Source: Xanthobacteraceae bacterium
Lineage (GTDB): Bacteria > Pseudomonadota > Alphaproteobacteria > Rhizobiales > Xanthobacteraceae
DNA: 6,838 nt
Direction of reading: 5' to 3'
Assembly: GCA_030043175.1 (NCBI GenBank)
Contig: JASHYD010000284.1
Location: 1 to 6,838 of the forward strand
Part shown: in pieces, positions 1-6,838 of the stretch
How positions within the stretch are numbered: the first letter of the stretch is position 1
How the letters are laid out: every line of letters starts with the position of its first letter
Made by a program: the position numbers and the translations under genes
The notes under the pieces: generated by a model
Database searches by the model: none
Told to the model about the DNA's origin: nothing
What the model saw: the letters and a program-made list of their open reading frames with translations, nothing else

Positions 1-2
1 GG

Positions 3-842
3 CCAGACGAAGTTCATCGCACCCTGCAGGACTTTCACATCGTCTGTATGATGCGCGAGCGCACGCCATTCCGCCGCAACACCATCGAGGCGCTGCCCAA
101 TCTCAAGCTGCTCATCACCACAGGTGCGCGCAACGCCTCGATCGACACGGCAGCCGCAGCCGAACGCGGCATCACCGTGTGCGGCACCGGCTCGTTCGGC
201 AATCCGACCACCGGCATTACCTTCGGCCTCATCCTGGAACTGACTCGACGGATCGGCTACGAGCATGCGCGGCTGAAGTCCGGCGAGCTTTGGCAGACTA
301 CGCTCGGACCGGATATCGAGGGCAAAACGCTCGGCATCGTCGGTCTCGGCAAGCTCGGCCTGCGCGTTGCCGGCGTCGCCAAAGCGTTCGGGATGAAGGT
401 GATCGCCTGGAGCCCGAATCTTACGCTGGAAAGGTGCCGCGACGCCGGCGTCGAGTACGCCACCAAGGACGACCTCTTCCGCAACGCCGATATTGTCACC
501 ATCCACGTCCAGCTTGGCGACCGCTCGCGCGGGCTGGTGACGGCAAAGGAATTCGGCTTGATGAAGCCGACCGCATACATCATCAACACCGCCCGCGGGC
601 CAATCATCGACGAAAAGGCGCTCATCGCCGCACTCGACGGGCACCGCATCGCGGGGGCCGGCCTCGATGTGTTCGACATCGAGCCGCTGCCGCTCGACCA
701 CCCCTTCCGGCGCATGGACAACGTGGTGATCACGCCGCACTTGGGCTATGTGAGCCAGCAGAACTATCAGCACTACTTCCGTGACATTGTCGCAAATATC
801 CGCGCTTTCATCGACGGCAAGCCAGTGCGGGTGATCAAATAG
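3..842 (+). CDS. D-2-hydroxyacid dehydrogenase family protein, 5' end cut by the window edge
   Basis: NAD(P)-dependent cytoplasmic oxidoreductase of the D-isomer-specific 2-hydroxyacid dehydrogenase family, which interconverts 2-keto acids and D-2-hydroxyacids. The frame stays open from base 3 through the two ATGs at 48 and 51, and the codons before them read like family sequence (…RTLQDFHIVC), so ATG 48 is internal and the real start lies outside the window. Numbering from ATG 48: the Rossmann loop is G99-x-G101-x-x-G104, and the catalytic Arg is R183 in NTARGPIID, Glu is E212 in FDIEPLP and His is H231 in TPHLGY. The R-E and E-H spacings (29 and 19) are normal for the family. The end of the second Rossmann strand reads AWSPN, without the Asp usual in strictly NAD-dependent members, so NADPH use is possible (inference). 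The C-terminus is complete (TAG at 840). The substrate cannot be named. It converges on the caspase genes and need not be related to them. Confidence 0.93.
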   Translation, partial: PDEVHRTLQDFHIVCMMRERTPFRRNTIEALPNLKLLITTGARNASIDTAAAAERGITVCGTGSFGNPTTGITFGLILELTRRIGYEHARLKSGELWQTTLGPDIEGKTLGIVGLGKLGLRVAGVAKAFGMKVIAWSPNLTLERCRDAGVEYATKDDLFRNADIVTIHVQLGDRSRGLVTAKEFGLMKPTAYIINTARGPIIDEKALIAALDGHRIAGAGLDVFDIEPLPLDHPFRRMDNVVITPHLGYVSQQNYQHYFRDIVANIRAFIDGKPVRVIK

Positions 843-917
843 TCCAGCCAAAATTGCCAGGGCAGCGAGCGTTGATGCCGGTCATATTGAAACCATTTCA
901 GGCCTATTATCGGGCTT

Positions 918-1012
918 GCGACGTGACAGTCGCCAGTACCGGGTTGGTCCCGGCGATCACTGGTCCATTCCGACAATGTGGACAACAGCGCCAACGCCGG
1001 AGTGTCCGGCGT
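918..1012. other. Cluster of three GC-rich hairpins, possible termination zone
   Basis: Three perfect short stems lie in the convergent gap. The first is GCGAC/GTCGC (918-922 with 929-933, 6-nt loop). The second is CCGGG/CCCGG (939-943 with 949-953, 5-nt loop). The third is ACGCCGG/CCGGCGT (994-1000 with 1006-1012, 5-nt loop). None is followed by a T tract on either strand, so these are not classic intrinsic terminators. Their place between two converging genes suggests RNA 3'-end structure, but in GC-rich DNA such stems can arise by chance. Confidence 0.3.
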
Positions 1013-1251
1013 ATCGACGAGGTGCCCGCCCACCATTAACCCGCATGGCGAAGATCGAGTCGAAATTGACCCGGCGCGACACCCTCAGCGGTCTCGCCAA
1101 GGTTCGTCGACAAGCGGGCCGAACTGGGCGACGCATCCACCCGTCGGTTCCGCGAACGAGTTATTGACCCGATCGAAGTGATATCGGCCAGAACTTGACA
1201 GTGTGTCGTCGCGGCCTTGAGCGGGTATCGACGAAATGTGCGGTGCCGTTT

Positions 1252-1263
1252 GTGAATATTCAC
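1252..1263. other. Perfect 12-bp palindrome GTGAATATTCAC
   Basis: A perfect AT-centred inverted repeat with no spacer starts 4 bp beyond the stop codon of the Ser-type caspase-like gene. Its AT content stands out against the GC-rich surroundings. It could be an operator-like site, but it sits at the 3' end of both flanking genes, where an operator has no obvious target. Confidence 0.25.
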
Positions 1264-1267
1264 CCAA

Positions 1268-3043
1268 TCATGGCGCAGCATCGCGTTTGGCTGCCTTCGC
1301 GTACCACTGCCGAGCTTGCGCTGCGTTCTTGGGGACGCCGCGGCCGCTCTCATAGAGCCTGCCCAATTGCCGCATGGCGTCTGCATTCCCACGATCGGCA
1401 CTTTTTTTGTACCAATTTATCGCTTGGATGTAGTCTTGCTGGATGCCGAGTCCCGCTTCATAGAATTCCCCGACCTTAGCCATGCTCACCTGGTCGCCCG
1501 CGGTGGCGGCGCCGCGATAGAGGCGGAACGCCTCGGCGACGTCTTTCGGGCCGCCAAGCCCCTTCTCGTACAGCGCCGCCAGCTCGGCCATCGCAAACGC
1601 TGACTTGAGCGCAACTGCTTTTGCGTACCAACTGCGCGCCTCGGCATAGTCCAACGGGACGATCGTTCCTTCGGAATAAAGCAGGCCAAGACTGTACATG
1701 GCGAGCGAACTGCCCAACGCGCTTGCCTTCTCATAAAGCTCGCGCGCCGTCGCGTAGTCGCCTCGCGCGATCGCCACGCGGGCCGCCTGAAGCGGAAATC
1801 TCGCCACTTGCGGAGAGCGCCGCATTGCCTCTTCGCACGCGCGGCCGGCCGCAACGACTGGGATTTTGCTCAACTCGACCCCGGCAGTGTTGTTCGGTCG
1901 CCCGCTGCCCAGCGGCGACGCAGCAAGGCGATCGCACTGCGCGATCGCGTTGAGGTCATCGTTCGACACCGGCTTGGTTGAAGCATTGGTTTCGCGCGAA
2001 GGCGCAACGAGCGTCACGTCAAGAGACTTTAACCGCGCTTCTGCTTCTTTTGCGTGGAGGCTTGAAGGAAACTTGTTAAGGAAGTCCGCGATCAGGTTCT
2101 TGTCGGTGGCATCCTTGATCGTCTGCCAGACCGTCTCGTCGGCTGGTAGGACTTCGCTCTTGACTTCGTCGGAATGGATCGAAATCGAAGGCTCCTTAAG
2201 ATAGATGGGGCTGTTTGGCAGCGATCCGTAGACGAACGGCTGTTGCCTGCGATTGGTGTGCGACAGCACATCGTCACGAACCCTTCTGAACATCAAGTTG
2301 ATGTCGAGCCCGGGCGATTGCAAATGACTTAGCAACGCCGCCGCATAAGGGCTGTTGCGACCGCCCCGATCGTCGTTGGTAGTGCCGTCCTTTGATGCGT
2401 AGGCTACAAGCACGTTCTGGGCCGGCTCGACCCTGGCCAGTCCGCGGTCGACGGAGCGGCCCTGAGCCGTGCGCCGCATTCGCGCCGCGAACGGATTGCT
2501 GCGACTGGCGTCGAGGATGACCACGCCCAAAATGGCGGCGCGGCCAACGGATTGCATGAGGCTGTTGAGCGCGATTGCTTCCTCGGCAACGTCAAGATCG
2601 GTGCGCAATTCGGCATCGACCGGAAGCAACCAGTTCTCGCCGCCCACCGCAAGCCCGTGTCCGCCGAAATACACCACGGCGAGGTCGGCATTTTGCGTCA
2701 ATTCGTTGAACCTGCGAATCGCCCGGCGAAAATCTTCGTATGAAGCGTTGAACAGCTTGGTGGTTGCGAATCCCAAACGTTCGAAGGATTGTGCGATGTC
2801 GCCGGCATCGTTCAAGGTGGTCGGCAGTGGCGGCGCGTTTTGGTAAGTGCCATTGCCGATGATGAGAGCGACGCGATTTTGCGCTTGGGCGCAACCGCCC
2901 CATAGGCCTAAAAGCGCGGTCAGTGCCAATGCCAATGCCCAAGGCGTACGCACGCAGGTGCGGCGATTGACGGGCAAAATCGCCAGTCGCCGCAGCCTGC
3001 GGATCACTCTCCTGATGGAGCGGAGCTCACCGTTGCTTTCCAT
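1268..3043 (-). CDS. Exported caspase-like (peptidase C14) protein with Cys-to-Ser nucleophile and Sel1 repeats
   Basis: This 591-aa protein has a caspase-like domain at about residues 57-285. H129 of the catalytic dyad is present (VYFGGHG), but the nucleophile position is Ser (S180 in ILDASRSNPF; codon AGT at 2506-2504). The paralog next door has DACRNNPF here. Cysteine proteolysis is therefore unlikely; the protein may be a pseudoprotease or a Ser-type variant (inference). Downstream lie a helical 'W…KFPSS' module (about 302-341), a CDRLAA…AC cap often found before Sel1 repeats (C370, C403), and four 36-residue Sel1 repeats (445-588), a protein-binding solenoid. The N-terminus is Arg-rich, then has a hydrophobic core (about 36-50) and CAQA|Q, consistent with export; C51 is a poor lipobox. 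ATG 3043 has GGAG 8 nt upstream. GTG 2953 would give a shorter, more typical signal peptide but lacks a ribosome site. It is probably co-transcribed with the gene ending at 3072. Confidence 0.92.
   Translation of the reverse strand: MESNGELRSIRRVIRRLRRLAILPVNRRTCVRTPWALALALTALLGLWGGCAQAQNRVALIIGNGTYQNAPPLPTTLNDAGDIAQSFERLGFATTKLFNASYEDFRRAIRRFNELTQNADLAVVYFGGHGLAVGGENWLLPVDAELRTDLDVAEEAIALNSLMQSVGRAAILGVVILDASRSNPFAARMRRTAQGRSVDRGLARVEPAQNVLVAYASKDGTTNDDRGGRNSPYAAALLSHLQSPGLDINLMFRRVRDDVLSHTNRRQQPFVYGSLPNSPIYLKEPSISIHSDEVKSEVLPADETVWQTIKDATDKNLIADFLNKFPSSLHAKEAEARLKSLDVTLVAPSRETNASTKPVSNDDLNAIAQCDRLAASPLGSGRPNNTAGVELSKIPVVAAGRACEEAMRRSPQVARFPLQAARVAIARGDYATARELYEKASALGSSLAMYSLGLLYSEGTIVPLDYAEARSWYAKAVALKSAFAMAELAALYEKGLGGPKDVAEAFRLYRGAATAGDQVSMAKVGEFYEAGLGIQQDYIQAINWYKKSADRGNADAMRQLGRLYESGRGVPKNAAQARQWYAKAAKRDAAP
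1280..1711 (-). repeat. Four tandem Sel1-like repeats (protein level)
   Basis: Residues 445-480, 481-516, 517-552 and 553-588 of the Ser-type caspase-like protein are four units of exactly 36 residues. They share the pattern A-M-x-x-L-G-x-L-Y-x-x-G-x-G followed by A-x-x-W-Y-x-K-A-A. The second unit is the most divergent (LYRGAATAG, and AEL for the usual xLG). A TPR-like half unit (RGDYATARELYEKASALG, about 427-444) precedes them. Confidence 0.9.
2021..2140 (-). repeat. Helical 'W…FP' module, copy in the Ser-type paralog
   Basis: Residues 302-341 follow the pattern W-x-x-I-x-x-x-x-D-x-x-x-L-x-x-F-x-x-x-FP, ending A-x-x-RL-x-x-L. The same module occurs in the neighbouring caspase-like protein just after its protease domain. 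It is predicted to be a two-helix unit; I do not know its function. Confidence 0.6.
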
Positions 3044-3051
3044 TGCCTGAT

Positions 3052-3055
3052 CTCC
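3052..3055 (-). promoter_or_regulatory. Ribosome binding site supporting ATG 3043
   Basis: GGAG on the minus strand lies 8 nt before ATG 3043, inside the 28-bp gap after the TGA of the upstream caspase gene. It is the main reason for preferring ATG 3043 over the GTG at 2953. Confidence 0.6.
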
Positions 3056-3071
3056 GCGCCGGGTCCACGAC

Positions 3072-4868
3072 TCAGCGGGGGACGTGGATCTGAACTCTCA
3101 CGTCGACCCTAGGCGTGGCGGCGGGAGTAGCGACCGTTGGCGCTCTGCTGGCGGCGTTCGCAACACCTCTGGGGCCTCCGGTCCTGACAGCCGTCACGGT
3201 CTTGACACCCGTCGTGGTCTTGAGCGCGCCGGAGGCGTGCGAGCCGCCGCCCTGGTGAAGCTTCAAGGCTCCAGTGCCAACGTGGTGCTTGCCCGGTGCG
3301 TTGTGATTCGGCCCAACGCGACGGAACTGGGTCCTTGGGTCACCCCCTCCGCCGGCGGCTCCGTTAGATGGAGGAGTATTGGCAGCCTCGCCGGCAGGCG
3401 CGCCATCCGGTCTGGAATTGGGAAAATTCCACGTCGTCTTGACGGTGGGCACGCATCCGCTCGGATTCCCCAGCGCCTGACACAGGGCGAGGGTGAAGCG
3501 GATGTCCTCGGCGAAGTGCCCGATGTCCGGGAACCGTTCGAACGCCCGCAGACATTCGGGCGCTGTTTGGTCGTTGTCCAGGAAGCACTGCAGGACATCC
3601 GGGTCTGCCGCCGCCGTGGTTAGGACGGCCTCGTCCACATTGAGGAGCGGAGCGGATACGACGTGCACAGTAATCGGGCTCTGCCCGAGAGCGGCCAAAC
3701 GGCTGTCGGCGACCACCCGCCGCTTCTTGCTGGGAAACTGGCCCACGAAGCGGCGTATCATGGTAGGGTCTTTGGTTTCCCTGATGACGTCCCAGGCCGT
3801 CTGGATGGCGGCGGTATCCCGGAGGAACCGTCGCGCGACCGCCTTCTCCGCCTGCTCGAATTCGGTGTCGGCAAAGCTCACGTGAGTGGCGGGCGGTGGC
3901 GCGGCGCCAGCCGTTGACGGGGGTGGGGTTTCGAGCGATGCGATCCGCACCTTGACGTCGGAAACGTGCGAGCTTGCGGGAAAGCGTTCGACAAACCGGG
4001 TCAGCGACGAGATGTCTTTGGTCGCCTTGAGAAACGACCAGGCAATCTCCGCCGCATCCGGCGGCGGCGGGTCGGCGGCGGTAACGGCGGTCGACGGCGG
4101 TTTGAAATAGATCTCGTCGCTCGAAAGTGATCCGTAAACAAATGGCTGCTGTTCGTTGTCCGTCGCCGCCATGACATCGTCGCGAACGTTCCTGAACAGG
4201 AAATCGACTTCAAGACCGGCCGTCTCGATGTGCTTGAGGAGCGCAGCGGTGAACGGGCTGTTGCGTCCGGCTCCATCGGCGGCGACGCTGCCGTCCCGCG
4301 CCGCATAGGCGACGAGCACGTTGTCGGCCGGTTCGACGGGCGCAAGCCCGAGGATTCGCACGCTTCGCGCGCTGGCTCTCTTCATGGTGGATTGAAAGGG
4401 GTTGTTCCGGCATGCGTCCAATATCACCAATCCCAGCGTCCTGGCTGCGGCCACTGCCTGCATGGCGGACTGCAGACTGATCGCCTCGGTACTGGCGTCC
4501 CCTTCGGTCTTGAGCTCTACATCCGTAGGCAGCAGCCAATTGCTGCCATTGATCTCGATACCATGGCCGGCAAAATATATAACCGCCATGTCGGCATTGT
4601 GCGCAGTCCGGCCGAAATCCAAGAGCGAGCGGCGCATCCCGTCGAAATCGGCGTCGGTGACGGTGCTGACCGCAAACCCCAGCCGCGTGAGCGCTGCAGA
4701 AATGTCCTGAGCATCGTGAGCGGGGTTCGGCAGGCTCGGCACCTTCGCGTAGGCGCTATTTCCCACGACGAGTGCGACCCGCGTCTGGGCGTGGGCGTGA
4801 CCCGAAAGCGCGAACAAGGCCGCTGCCACCAACGGCATTAAGAAAGACAGCAAATGGCGCTTGAGCAT
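3072..4868 (-). CDS. Exported caspase-family protease (peptidase C14-like) with intact His/Cys dyad
   Basis: This 598-aa protein has a clear Sec signal peptide (MLKRHLLSF…, cleavage likely at AHA|Q, about residue 27), so a periplasmic location is expected. The caspase-like domain spans about 29-256: VGNSAY strand, catalytic H102 in IYFAGHG, nucleophile C153 in ILDACRNNPF (codon TGC at 4412-4410), and GRNSPFTAALL late in the fold. By family it should be a cysteine endopeptidase; its substrate is unknown. After the domain come helical 'W…RFP' modules at 273-312 and 355-394 and a degenerate, cysteine-bearing copy at about 421-462 (C428, C439, C463, with C472 beyond). Residues about 485-580 are a Gly/Pro/Thr/His-rich, probably disordered linker, and the end RVDVRVQIHVPR looks like a lone beta strand. 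It is the first gene of a probable two-gene operon with its Ser-type paralog. A weak GGGA precedes ATG 4868. Confidence 0.93.
   Translation of the reverse strand: MLKRHLLSFLMPLVAAALFALSGHAHAQTRVALVVGNSAYAKVPSLPNPAHDAQDISAALTRLGFAVSTVTDADFDGMRRSLLDFGRTAHNADMAVIYFAGHGIEINGSNWLLPTDVELKTEGDASTEAISLQSAMQAVAAARTLGLVILDACRNNPFQSTMKRASARSVRILGLAPVEPADNVLVAYAARDGSVAADGAGRNSPFTAALLKHIETAGLEVDFLFRNVRDDVMAATDNEQQPFVYGSLSSDEIYFKPPSTAVTAADPPPPDAAEIAWSFLKATKDISSLTRFVERFPASSHVSDVKVRIASLETPPPSTAGAAPPPATHVSFADTEFEQAEKAVARRFLRDTAAIQTAWDVIRETKDPTMIRRFVGQFPSKKRRVVADSRLAALGQSPITVHVVSAPLLNVDEAVLTTAAADPDVLQCFLDNDQTAPECLRAFERFPDIGHFAEDIRFTLALCQALGNPSGCVPTVKTTWNFPNSRPDGAPAGEAANTPPSNGAAGGGGDPRTQFRRVGPNHNAPGKHHVGTGALKLHQGGGSHASGALKTTTGVKTVTAVRTGGPRGVANAASRAPTVATPAATPRVDVRVQIHVPR
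3483..4052 (-). repeat. Two to three helical 'W…RFP' modules (protein level)
   Basis: Copy 1 is residues 273-312 (W277, RFPASS). Copy 2 is 355-394 (W359, QFPSKK, ending RLAAL). A third, weaker copy at 421-462 keeps FL…ERFP…H…I but has replaced Trp and gained C428 and C439. Copies 1 and 2 are separated by a Pro/Ala-rich spacer. The modules look like tandem-duplicated helical pairs attached to caspase domains; the third-copy assignment is my alignment by eye. Confidence 0.55.
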
Positions 4869-5211
4869 GATTGATCGTCCCGAGGTTCATCGCCCGGCCG
4901 CGACATGACGCCGACAGCCAGCAAACTTCAAAAGCATGGCAGTTAGTGCCGCCAGCGTCAGTTCGAGTTCATTTTCAAATGAGGCGCAGACATCAAACGT
5001 GATGCGACCGCGCCCCCACCCGCCGCCGGATGAGGTCGAGGTGGCGGATCCGGGCCGCGCGCGCCGAACACGGACACCGGGCGCGGCCGGGTTCCGCTCC
5101 CTCTTTGTTCCGGCCTGCAAGAATGGCCAAACCGAGGCCTCGGGCCGTAGAGGTCGAAGAGTTCGGCAAAACCACAACCCGGACTTTCCCGGCCGGCGCG
5201 CCTCGATCGAC
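4869..5211. other. Intergenic region between the barrel-protein gene and the caspase operon
   Basis: This 343-bp stretch should hold the operon promoter (minus strand) and the 3' end of the barrel-protein transcript. I see no convincing -35/-10 pair. Its outer part is very GC-rich. It contains an 8-bp stem GGCCGCGC/GCGCGGCC (5053-5060 with 5081-5088) without a T tract, and a perfect 12-bp palindrome CCGAGGCCTCGG at 5132-5143. An open minus-strand frame ending at 4887, 18 bp before the caspase start, encodes a hydrophobic tail but has no supported start and is not called. Confidence 0.5.
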
Positions 5212-6534
5212 TCAAAACTGCTTGCGCAGACCCACCTTCGCGAAGCCTCCGATCAGTTCGCCGCCGAAGCGAACCGATCCCCTAACATAAGCCGAGTAGC
5301 CGTTGTTGAAATCGACATTCAACTCCGGATCGACCTCGCCTCGCAGGAGGCCCTGGTCGGTCGGCGTGACCGGCACCGGGACCTGCACGGTGGCGACCGT
5401 CGTTCCATCGGCGATCACGTTGCTATAGGCCAGCACCGCCAGGGTCGGTTCGAAGCTGATGCCGTTGGAATTGAAGGCTGTTCCGAACCGCGCGCCGGCC
5501 TGCAGCCGCAAGGTGGAGCCATCCTGGAGACCCATCAGAGCCGCATTGTCGCCGAACATGGTGCGCGTGAAGCTGAAGCCCGCGGTGGGTTCGATAAAAC
5601 TCGTCCCAAACTTGTTCTTGTACTGGATATTTCCGCTCAGGCCGGCGTTCGTCACGCCAATCGAGCTGTTGGGCAGGCCCAATCCATCCAAGTCTTCGTT
5701 GAGGTTCAGGAAATCGAGCTTCCCGACAAGGTCCGCCGAGAACGGGCCGTTGATATACATCGAATAAAGCCCGACACCCGGTCCTTCCAGGCGCAGCGAA
5801 GCGGGGCCGCCGGTCAGACTGATCCGGCTCGAAGTGTAGTTGGTCACCAACCCGGCCACAACGTAGTCGCCGGGTAGCCAGGCGTTTTGCCAAGTTCCGT
5901 CAAACCCTGCATGGACGCCGTAGGTGTCCTGCGTGCGCCCGACATCGTTAGCATTGAGCGGGTTGCGTTTTTCCCAGTCCCCAAGCCCCTCGACCCAGGC
6001 TGCCCAGGTCGGGCCGGCGGCCATTGCAGGCGATGCTTTGTAGATAGGATTCCTGTCAGCGCCATAGACAGGGCCCTTGTCGCCGTTCGGCGCATAGCCC
6101 AGCAGGCTCTCCTCACCACTGGACGGGGAGTAGGCCAAGGGCGAGGCGGTACTTGACTGCGAACCGAGCGGGCCCTGGAGCTGATCGCGCCTCGTGCGAA
6201 GCACACCTTGCACAGTGGAGAAGGAGAGCTGCTGCTGGGAAGCGGCTATCTGGCCGATGCTAGGAGTTGCAGAATGGCACGTTGCATTGGAAATGGCAGA
6301 AATCGGCGCCGTGAAGTCGCCCCGCGGCGGCCGGCAGCGTCCAGTCGTCGGATCCAGCGTCGAACCGGTAGGACAACTTAGGGTCTGGCAGCGCCCGCCC
6401 CCGAGGTTGGTGGAACCGGCGGGACAACTGCATATTGATTGCGCCTGAGCAAAATCGACACTGCCGAAAACCGCACAACCGAACAAAACCAAAAAAGCGA
6501 ACGCACTTCCGCCGCGTGCTCTCGTCAATTTCAT
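5212..6534 (-). CDS. Outer-membrane beta-barrel (autotransporter-type) protein with Cys-rich N-terminus
   Basis: This 440-aa exported protein starts at ATG 6534, where MKLTRARGG plus a hydrophobic stretch ending AQA|Q gives a good signal peptide (cleavage about residue 31) behind a G-rich stretch 5 nt upstream. ATG 6600, 22 codons earlier, has no ribosome site and would bury the signal. The mature N-terminus has six cysteines (C35, C37, C49, C54, C67, C86) in two SCPxGST…GRC units. A Gln-rich segment (IAASQQQLSF…RTRRDQLQG, about 95-121) follows, then a linker. From about residue 176 (GPTWAAWVEG) the protein alternates polar and hydrophobic residues with many Gly and aromatic positions, as in a barrel, and ends in KVGLRKQF with the C-terminal Phe typical of barrel assembly. 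This resembles rhizobial autotransporter-domain proteins, but there is no large passenger. Its role is unknown; adhesion or surface structure is plausible. Confidence 0.85.
   Translation of the reverse strand: MKLTRARGGSAFAFLVLFGCAVFGSVDFAQAQSICSCPAGSTNLGGGRCQTLSCPTGSTLDPTTGRCRPPRGDFTAPISAISNATCHSATPSIGQIAASQQQLSFSTVQGVLRTRRDQLQGPLGSQSSTASPLAYSPSSGEESLLGYAPNGDKGPVYGADRNPIYKASPAMAAGPTWAAWVEGLGDWEKRNPLNANDVGRTQDTYGVHAGFDGTWQNAWLPGDYVVAGLVTNYTSSRISLTGGPASLRLEGPGVGLYSMYINGPFSADLVGKLDFLNLNEDLDGLGLPNSSIGVTNAGLSGNIQYKNKFGTSFIEPTAGFSFTRTMFGDNAALMGLQDGSTLRLQAGARFGTAFNSNGISFEPTLAVLAYSNVIADGTTVATVQVPVPVTPTDQGLLRGEVDPELNVDFNNGYSAYVRGSVRFGGELIGGFAKVGLRKQF
6334..6432 (-). repeat. Two tandem Cys-rich units SCPxGST…GRC (protein level)
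   Basis: SCPAGST…GGGRC and SCPTGST…TTGRC lie back to back just after the signal peptide of the barrel protein, 17 residues apart. The DNA of the two cores (GAACCGG-x-x-GGACAACT on the plus strand) is nearly identical, which suggests a short local duplication. The pattern resembles small disulfide-bonded extracellular units; disulfide pairing is inferred. Confidence 0.7.
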
Positions 6535-6838
6535 GGCAGCCCCCCAGATCAAAACGAAATTACAATACGAATTTTCAGATTCAGCAGCCGTTTCAGCCAC
6601 GCGCAGACCGCCACGTATGTTTGGAGATTGCGTTTCAATTGAGAAATAAATGAGGCTAAAAACTGACTGTCGAAAACGTAGCCAATGAAAAATGAAGTCA
6701 TCTCAATCCGTTGGACGGCACTGCACCGAGCGGATCAAATGAGAAATGACCGCAGTGTTGCAGGAAGGCCACGGCGATGAGTTGCGATTTACAACCAGCC
6801 GTTATCATGGGACGACCACTCGCCGGGGGCGCTTCGTT
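6535..6838. other. AT-richer upstream region of the barrel-protein gene, no firm gene
   Basis: This is about 300 bp upstream of the barrel-protein start. The part from about 6541 to 6720 is clearly AT-richer than the coding DNA, as expected for a promoter and leader on the minus strand. Weak -35-like boxes (TTGAAA near 6634-6639, TTCGAC near 6670) lack good -10 partners at normal spacing, so no promoter is called. Minus-strand frames stay open from the right edge to a TAA at 6789 and to a TGA near 6700; either could be the end of a neighbouring gene, but nothing recognisable is visible. Confidence 0.4.

Follow-up and report, generated by a model that had tools for sequence, protein, structure and literature searches.

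We analysed a 6,838-nucleotide stretch of DNA from a Xanthobacteraceae bacterium (assembly GCA_030043175.1, contig JASHYD010000284.1, positions 1 to 6,838; hereafter the window), whose minus strand carries two adjacent genes for caspase-like proteins. The upstream gene encodes an orthocaspase with a His-Cys catalytic dyad, and the downstream gene encodes a homologue that carries Sel1 repeats and has serine at the nucleophile position. Transcription on this strand runs from an autotransporter beta-domain gene through the upstream caspase-like gene to the Sel1-bearing one. Our data suggest that the altered protein no longer cuts but has been retained to work together with the active one. The features of the pair are as follows.

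1268..3043, minus strand: pseudo-orthocaspase with Sel1 repeats, 591 amino acids (open frame of 591 codons)
1277..1756, minus strand: Sel1 repeat region, approximately residues 430-589
2366..2368, minus strand: Arg226, which is Gly in the 158 Cys-bearing rows compared
2504..2506, minus strand: Ser180 (AGT), nucleophile position (codon read and alignment)
2510..2512, minus strand: Asp178, equivalent by position (Cys minus 2) to TbMC2 Asp211
2657..2659, minus strand: His129, the retained dyad histidine (codon read and alignment)
2807..2809, minus strand: Asp79, equivalent by alignment to TbMC2 Asp95 (acidic specificity pocket)
3044..3071, minus strand: intergenic gap of 28 bases, with GGAG 8 bases before the downstream ATG
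3072..4868, minus strand: true orthocaspase, 598 amino acids, His102-Cys153 (598 codons, Peptidase_C14)
4410..4412, minus strand: Cys153 codon (TGC) of the active paralogue

The Peptidase_C14 domain of Pfam was recovered in both proteins (E-values 3e-32 and 6.5e-35), together with four stretches of Sel1 in the downstream one, for which these were the only Pfam domains, no p10-specific profile having been run. A preliminary description of this DNA had reported that Ser replaces the catalytic Cys at 2504..2506 in an intact 591-codon frame joined to Sel1 repeats, with the catalytic His kept in both proteins, and each of these readings is borne out: the downstream motif DASRSNPF places Ser180 where the upstream DACRNNPF has Cys153, the histidines are His129 and His102, and the frame is open over 1268-3043. 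The upstream protein, with a His-Cys dyad inside its Peptidase_C14 domain, classifies as a true orthocaspase, and the downstream protein, in which the Peptidase_C14 (p20) domain is present and the dyad substituted (His129 kept, Ser180 for Cys), as a pseudo-orthocaspase. Both Asp residues of the acidic pocket, a typical rather than formal trait of pseudo-orthocaspases, are kept as well (reference residues from Klemencic et al. 2019, PMC6426788; this and the other papers cited are represented here by parts of their text). In most of the 24 N-termini that were read by eye, a hydrophobic stretch and an AxA-like motif precede the domain. PHROGs matches were confined to the Sel1 region, NCBIfam matches all fell under their cut-offs, and the 'caspase' model in PADLOC gave weak matches only (8.7e-4, 1e-8), which we did not take as a defence-system call.

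Homologues were drawn from a database of approximately 5.8 billion proteins, in which the downstream query had 762 matches and the upstream query 5,270; the best 120 of each were used, and row counts refer to clusters, not independent events. Their sources are given as jgi, ena, lgn, ncbi, nr or src, most are 'hypothetical', 'uncharacterized' or nameless, and the listed homologues are probably largely metagenomic; a Xanthobacteraceae label is found on P0181 (caspase side) and on P0261 and P0288 (autotransporter side). The downstream alignment (121 rows including the query) has S in 69 rows, C in 39, N in 10 and a gap in 3 at the nucleophile column, and H in 94, Y in 19, L in 1, F in 1 and a gap in 6 at the His column. 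Across the 62 best rows (P0005-P0066) the site is covered in 61, and 60 of these have Ser or Asn; the remaining one, P0057, has Cys, with Tyr for His. The preliminary description had named a predominance of Cys among downstream orthologues as the outcome that would speak against it, and the opposite was found. The upstream family has Cys in 120/120 covered rows (121 including the query, one with a gap) and His in 118 of 121; the remaining three either lack this part of the protein or begin within it. Because all upstream rows covering the site have Cys, the altered state is restricted to the downstream lineage in the best-120 lists. The expectation of Ser fixed downstream and Cys fixed upstream thus holds for the upstream gene, but the window gene's clade (63 rows) is divided between Ser (53) and Asn (10). 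The accompanying change of Asn to Ser, two residues after the nucleophile position, is present but uninformative, as N, S, D, T and G are all found there in relatives.

For the non-Cys members we used a family set of 77 rows, from which two Ser rows, P0109 (a fragment) and P0118 (Phe-Ser, distant), were excluded. Only Ser or Asn occurs at the nucleophile site of these rows, and the Asp two before it (the equivalent of Asp178) and the Arg one after it are kept in 77/77. Thus, the site looks constrained though not catalytic, and the absence of a catalytic nucleophile in the downstream protein is well supported. The Asp79 equivalent is likewise Asp in 75 of the 76 rows having a residue there. A decaying paralogue or a sequencing error, for which nothing speaks beyond the substitution itself, is extremely improbable given the open frame, a ratio of non-synonymous to synonymous substitution rates (dN/dS) of 0.139 in the altered domain against 0.104 (one pair of genomes), and the presence of Ser or Asn across the clade. 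Additionally, the orthologue at locus L001 of Hyphomicrobiales bacterium isolate Centralia_MAG_73 (genome G001) spells the serine AGC where the window has AGT, a synonymous difference. The altered domain evolves under purifying selection, and the earlier view that the protein is maintained (Ser or Asn in 60/61 covered best rows) is upheld.

Two trees bear on how often Cys was lost: a careful tree of 51 hand-thinned rows, with the two catalytic columns blanked and rooted on 10 His-Cys rows, and a quick tree of 72 hand-thinned rows. For both, the tested group was chosen with an initial 142-row tree already in view. On the careful tree, a Tyr-Ser lineage (97/97) branches off first, the remainder holding together at 95/89. 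The His-Cys lineage P0067-P0075 branches next (its member P0073 is Tyr-Cys), followed by P0057 (Tyr-Cys), which a node of 100/99 joins to the window's clade (99/96), mostly His-Ser or His-Asn with a few Tyr-Ser and one Leu-Ser. Forcing all non-Cys rows together cost 28.9 log units on this tree (approximately unbiased test, p-AU 0.0013), and the same single-clade test on the quick tree gave p-AU 0.0515, so the outcome is mixed overall. Two changes between Cys and non-Cys are needed, that is, two losses, or one loss and a regain. Cys was probably lost more than once, because the sister lineage P0067-P0075 keeps it and the further lineage is Tyr-Ser. Gene conversion as the source of Cys in P0067-P0075 finds no support, as the likeness of P0074 to its partner is no greater near the motif (0.50) than across the domain (0.51).

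The loop after VAYA adds to this picture. Position 226 is Gly in all 158 Cys rows compared (P0057 excluded) and Arg in 61/63 rows of the window's clade. Arg is also found in P0057, which has Cys, and the change to Arg226 therefore predates Cys loss in the window's lineage. The Tyr-Ser lineage has a residue at 226 in 7/14 rows, and the three rows read have shortened or altered loops. These two modes of remodelling favour two or more losses of Cys in the downstream gene slot, and the trees, the quick one less strongly, point the same way. A speculative and rather improbable extension would be that each of at least two silencings combined Cys-to-Ser replacement with a different remodelling of this one loop, and that in the window's lineage the conserved Arg226 may extend into the acidic S1 pocket and mimic a substrate there. 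The caspase fold would then be plugged by its own residue and might sense or gate basic-ended peptides for the active neighbour in the cell envelope.

The substitutions also bear on whether Ser180 could act as a new nucleophile in a Ser-His hydrolase. Retention of His in 59 of the 76 non-Cys rows with a residue there would fit such an enzyme, but His is replaced by Tyr (16) or Leu (1) in the other 17, and Asn occupies the nucleophile site in 10 of the 77 rows; the five Asn rows on the careful tree need five changes, four of them forced by well-supported branches. A nucleophilic Ser paired with His is therefore not invariant. As a working Ser-His pair is not expected to tolerate swaps to Asn and to Tyr or Leu, this alternative, already held to be the less likely one in the preliminary description, is weakened further and appears very unlikely.

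The pairing itself is conserved. Linkage was assessed from contigs of identical length in two homologue lists (longest contig per cluster), using the 118 and 114 rows with a contig size; rows without one, which were omitted, numbered 2, 6 and 7 of 120 in three lists. The two caspase lists share 23 identical lengths, and both genes fit in 22 of these contigs, against a chance expectation of 0.4 on average and 3 at most (lengths shifted by 1-40 bases either way). One match, P0044/P0206 (2,150 base pairs, bp), was discarded, since that length cannot hold both genes, and another, P0233/P0255 (3,768 bp), accommodates its genes and may be due to chance. Little room is left on the contigs of 3,765 and 4,053 bp, where 249 and 579 bases remain beyond the two genes, which must therefore be neighbours. 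Among the 22 linked contigs the downstream site is Ser or Asn in 17, and the downstream dyad is Tyr-Cys in one and His-Cys in four, while the upstream dyad is His-Cys in 22/22. The L001 locus has the same gene order at the DNA level (85 percent identity). Thus, an active and a nucleophile-altered member co-occur in 17 of these contigs, the window and L001, as in protease/pseudoprotease pairs; the active/altered pairing proposed earlier stands, with the amendment that Cys loss probably happened more than once.

The independent alternative is that the downstream protein is a pseudo-enzyme with a ligand of its own and that linkage is a relic of tandem duplication. In its favour, a pseudo-orthocaspase is all that small unicellular cyanobacteria possess (PMC6426788), and knock-out of such a gene in Synechocystis led to higher oxidative-stress tolerance (PMC7889975). 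Against it, Ser-bearing members as distant from P0001 as 53 percent identity, those of the Tyr-Ser lineage among them, are still linked, and the upstream partner has the active dyad every time. We consider this alternative doubtful.

The gap between the caspase genes is 28 bases, GGAG precedes the downstream ATG, and a scan found no minus-strand terminator-like site within the gap; co-transcription of the two genes is therefore likely. The window's remaining genes are as follows.

5212..6600, minus strand: autotransporter beta-domain protein, 462 amino acids, linked neighbour
to 842, plus strand: D-isomer 2-hydroxyacid dehydrogenase, cut by the window start and running toward the minus-strand genes

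By the same length criterion the autotransporter gene is linked to the downstream list on 6 contigs and to the upstream list on 8 (chance approximately 0.7 each, maximum 3). It is separated from the caspase pair by two weak terminator-like sites and is thus perhaps not on the same transcript. Terminator-like sites in the window number 12 against 6.6 expected (standard deviation 3.2), which is weak evidence, and a promoter scan of the window found none (1.5 expected by shuffles). The autotransporter protein has a short Cys-rich stretch (CSCPAGSTNLGGGRCQTLSCPTGS) following its signal region. The C-terminus of the active caspase (window 3072-3400, minus strand) is rich in Gly, Pro and Ala and has a beta-like end tail, VRVQIHVPR; the tail of its L001 counterpart consists of repeated VKVP/NVKV.

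Several known systems resemble the pair or its altered member in part. The MALT1 paracaspase, unlike what is predicted for the downstream protein, is an active enzyme. It is among the closest known systems (PDB 3uo8, 3v4o). The pseudo-orthocaspases of Rhizobiales and Cyanobacteria (PMC6426788) share with the downstream protein a p20 domain, a changed His-Cys dyad and a retained acidic pocket. According to that survey, pseudo forms make up 8.6 percent of bacterial orthocaspases, and Rhizobiales hold 561 of the 582 alphaproteobacterial ones; the dyads found most often in this order are YS, YA and FS, and QC and HA are frequent too. The set differs from ours in that, in the parts of the survey used here, His-Ser and His-Asn are not among the dyads named, nothing is said of an active gene lying beside the pseudo form, and such proteins are held unlikely to be regulators; searching its main text for Sel1, operon and asparagine gave no match. 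Asplund-Samuelsson et al. (2012, PMC3501461) reported more than one caspase homologue in 20 of 217 predicted operons, including those of Alphaproteobacteria, and Sel1 in 40 of 671 caspase homologues (6 percent), and the parts of that paper used here say nothing on an inactive member in such multi-metacaspase operons. A literature search, largely outside subscription journals, found no description of a live/dead caspase pair. Because the same parts of both surveys describe no such pair, we regard the arrangement seen here, in which a Sel1-bearing pseudo-orthocaspase with a His-Ser or His-Asn dyad stands in conserved tandem with a true orthocaspase, as a new variation on a known theme.

Pairs of live and dead caspase relatives are known in eukaryotes. 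The Trypanosoma brucei metacaspase MCA4 is, like the downstream protein, a caspase-family pseudo-enzyme with Ser for Cys, and it is processed by its active paralogue MCA3 (PMC6657590, PMC6426788); the two sources disagree on whether the His of MCA4 is also changed, and MCA4 differs in being a eukaryotic metacaspase. In c-FLIP(L)/caspase-8 (PMC6426788; structure 3h11) an inactive caspase fold pairs with an active one, which may offer a parallel, although these are animal proteins in another setting. The trypanosome precedent, like the adjacency of the active and altered genes, would also fit a downstream protein that is simply a substrate, cleaved by its active neighbour with release of the Sel1 region or the pseudo-domain. 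A mere substrate would not need conserved pocket residues, and we hold this reading to be unlikely. The substrate and independent-function readings are the main rivals to the explanation that we prefer.

That explanation, to which we assign a probability of roughly 0.6, is that the Sel1-bearing pseudo-orthocaspase is exported and serves its active neighbour as an adaptor or regulator. It is supported by clade-wide replacement of Cys, retention of the predicted fold and pocket residues, purifying selection and linkage. The protein would lack peptidase activity and, judging from signal regions read by eye, would be exported to the cell envelope, where the retained acidic pocket may still bind basic peptide ends and the Sel1 repeats may present a ligand or substrate. 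It could then serve as a substrate-docking adaptor, or as an allosteric or competitive regulator, of the upstream orthocaspase, regulation of the neighbour being what we infer from sequence comparison.

Several points weigh against this explanation. The altered loop with Arg226 might close off the pocket instead of keeping it accessible, export rests on AxA motifs before the domain that were read by eye, and linkage outside the window and L001, where it was read from the DNA, is deduced from contig sizes. Prokaryotic pseudo-orthocaspases beside true ones were judged most likely not to be their regulators, and the small unicellular cyanobacteria mentioned above have a pseudo-orthocaspase only (PMC6426788). 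Additionally, searches of 298, 397, 391 and 385 reference genomes (overlapping sets, differing E-value thresholds, 3 or 4 candidates scored per genome) found an orthologue in G001 only (85 percent), the next best listed match being at 55 percent. The pair is thus seldom met in the sampled genomes, and most of what is known of it comes from database proteins. The 30 loci of one reference search comprise 28 His-Cys, the G001 orthologue (L018) and one Phe-Ser (L027); two further fragments, in L018 and L022, end before the nucleophile site, and only some of the weaker matches were read there. Eleven wider regions from eleven other genomes contained no pair with an altered member. Other tandem caspase frames were seen in L061, where both genes are His-Cys, and in L062, where the second frame is cut at the contig end. 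The eight Peptidase_C14 matches of G001 include five His-Cys, the His-Ser orthologue and one cut before the site; this genome also carries a Tyr-Ala pseudo-caspase (L015).

Bacterial pseudo-orthocaspases have no assigned partner in the literature surveyed, in parts of which regulation of true orthocaspases is argued against (PMC6426788). With a conserved, operon-like pair of a live and a dead caspase, this question of regulation can be put to a direct test in bacteria. If the nucleophile was indeed lost repeatedly in a single gene slot, this would mean selection for an inactive partner rather than drift.
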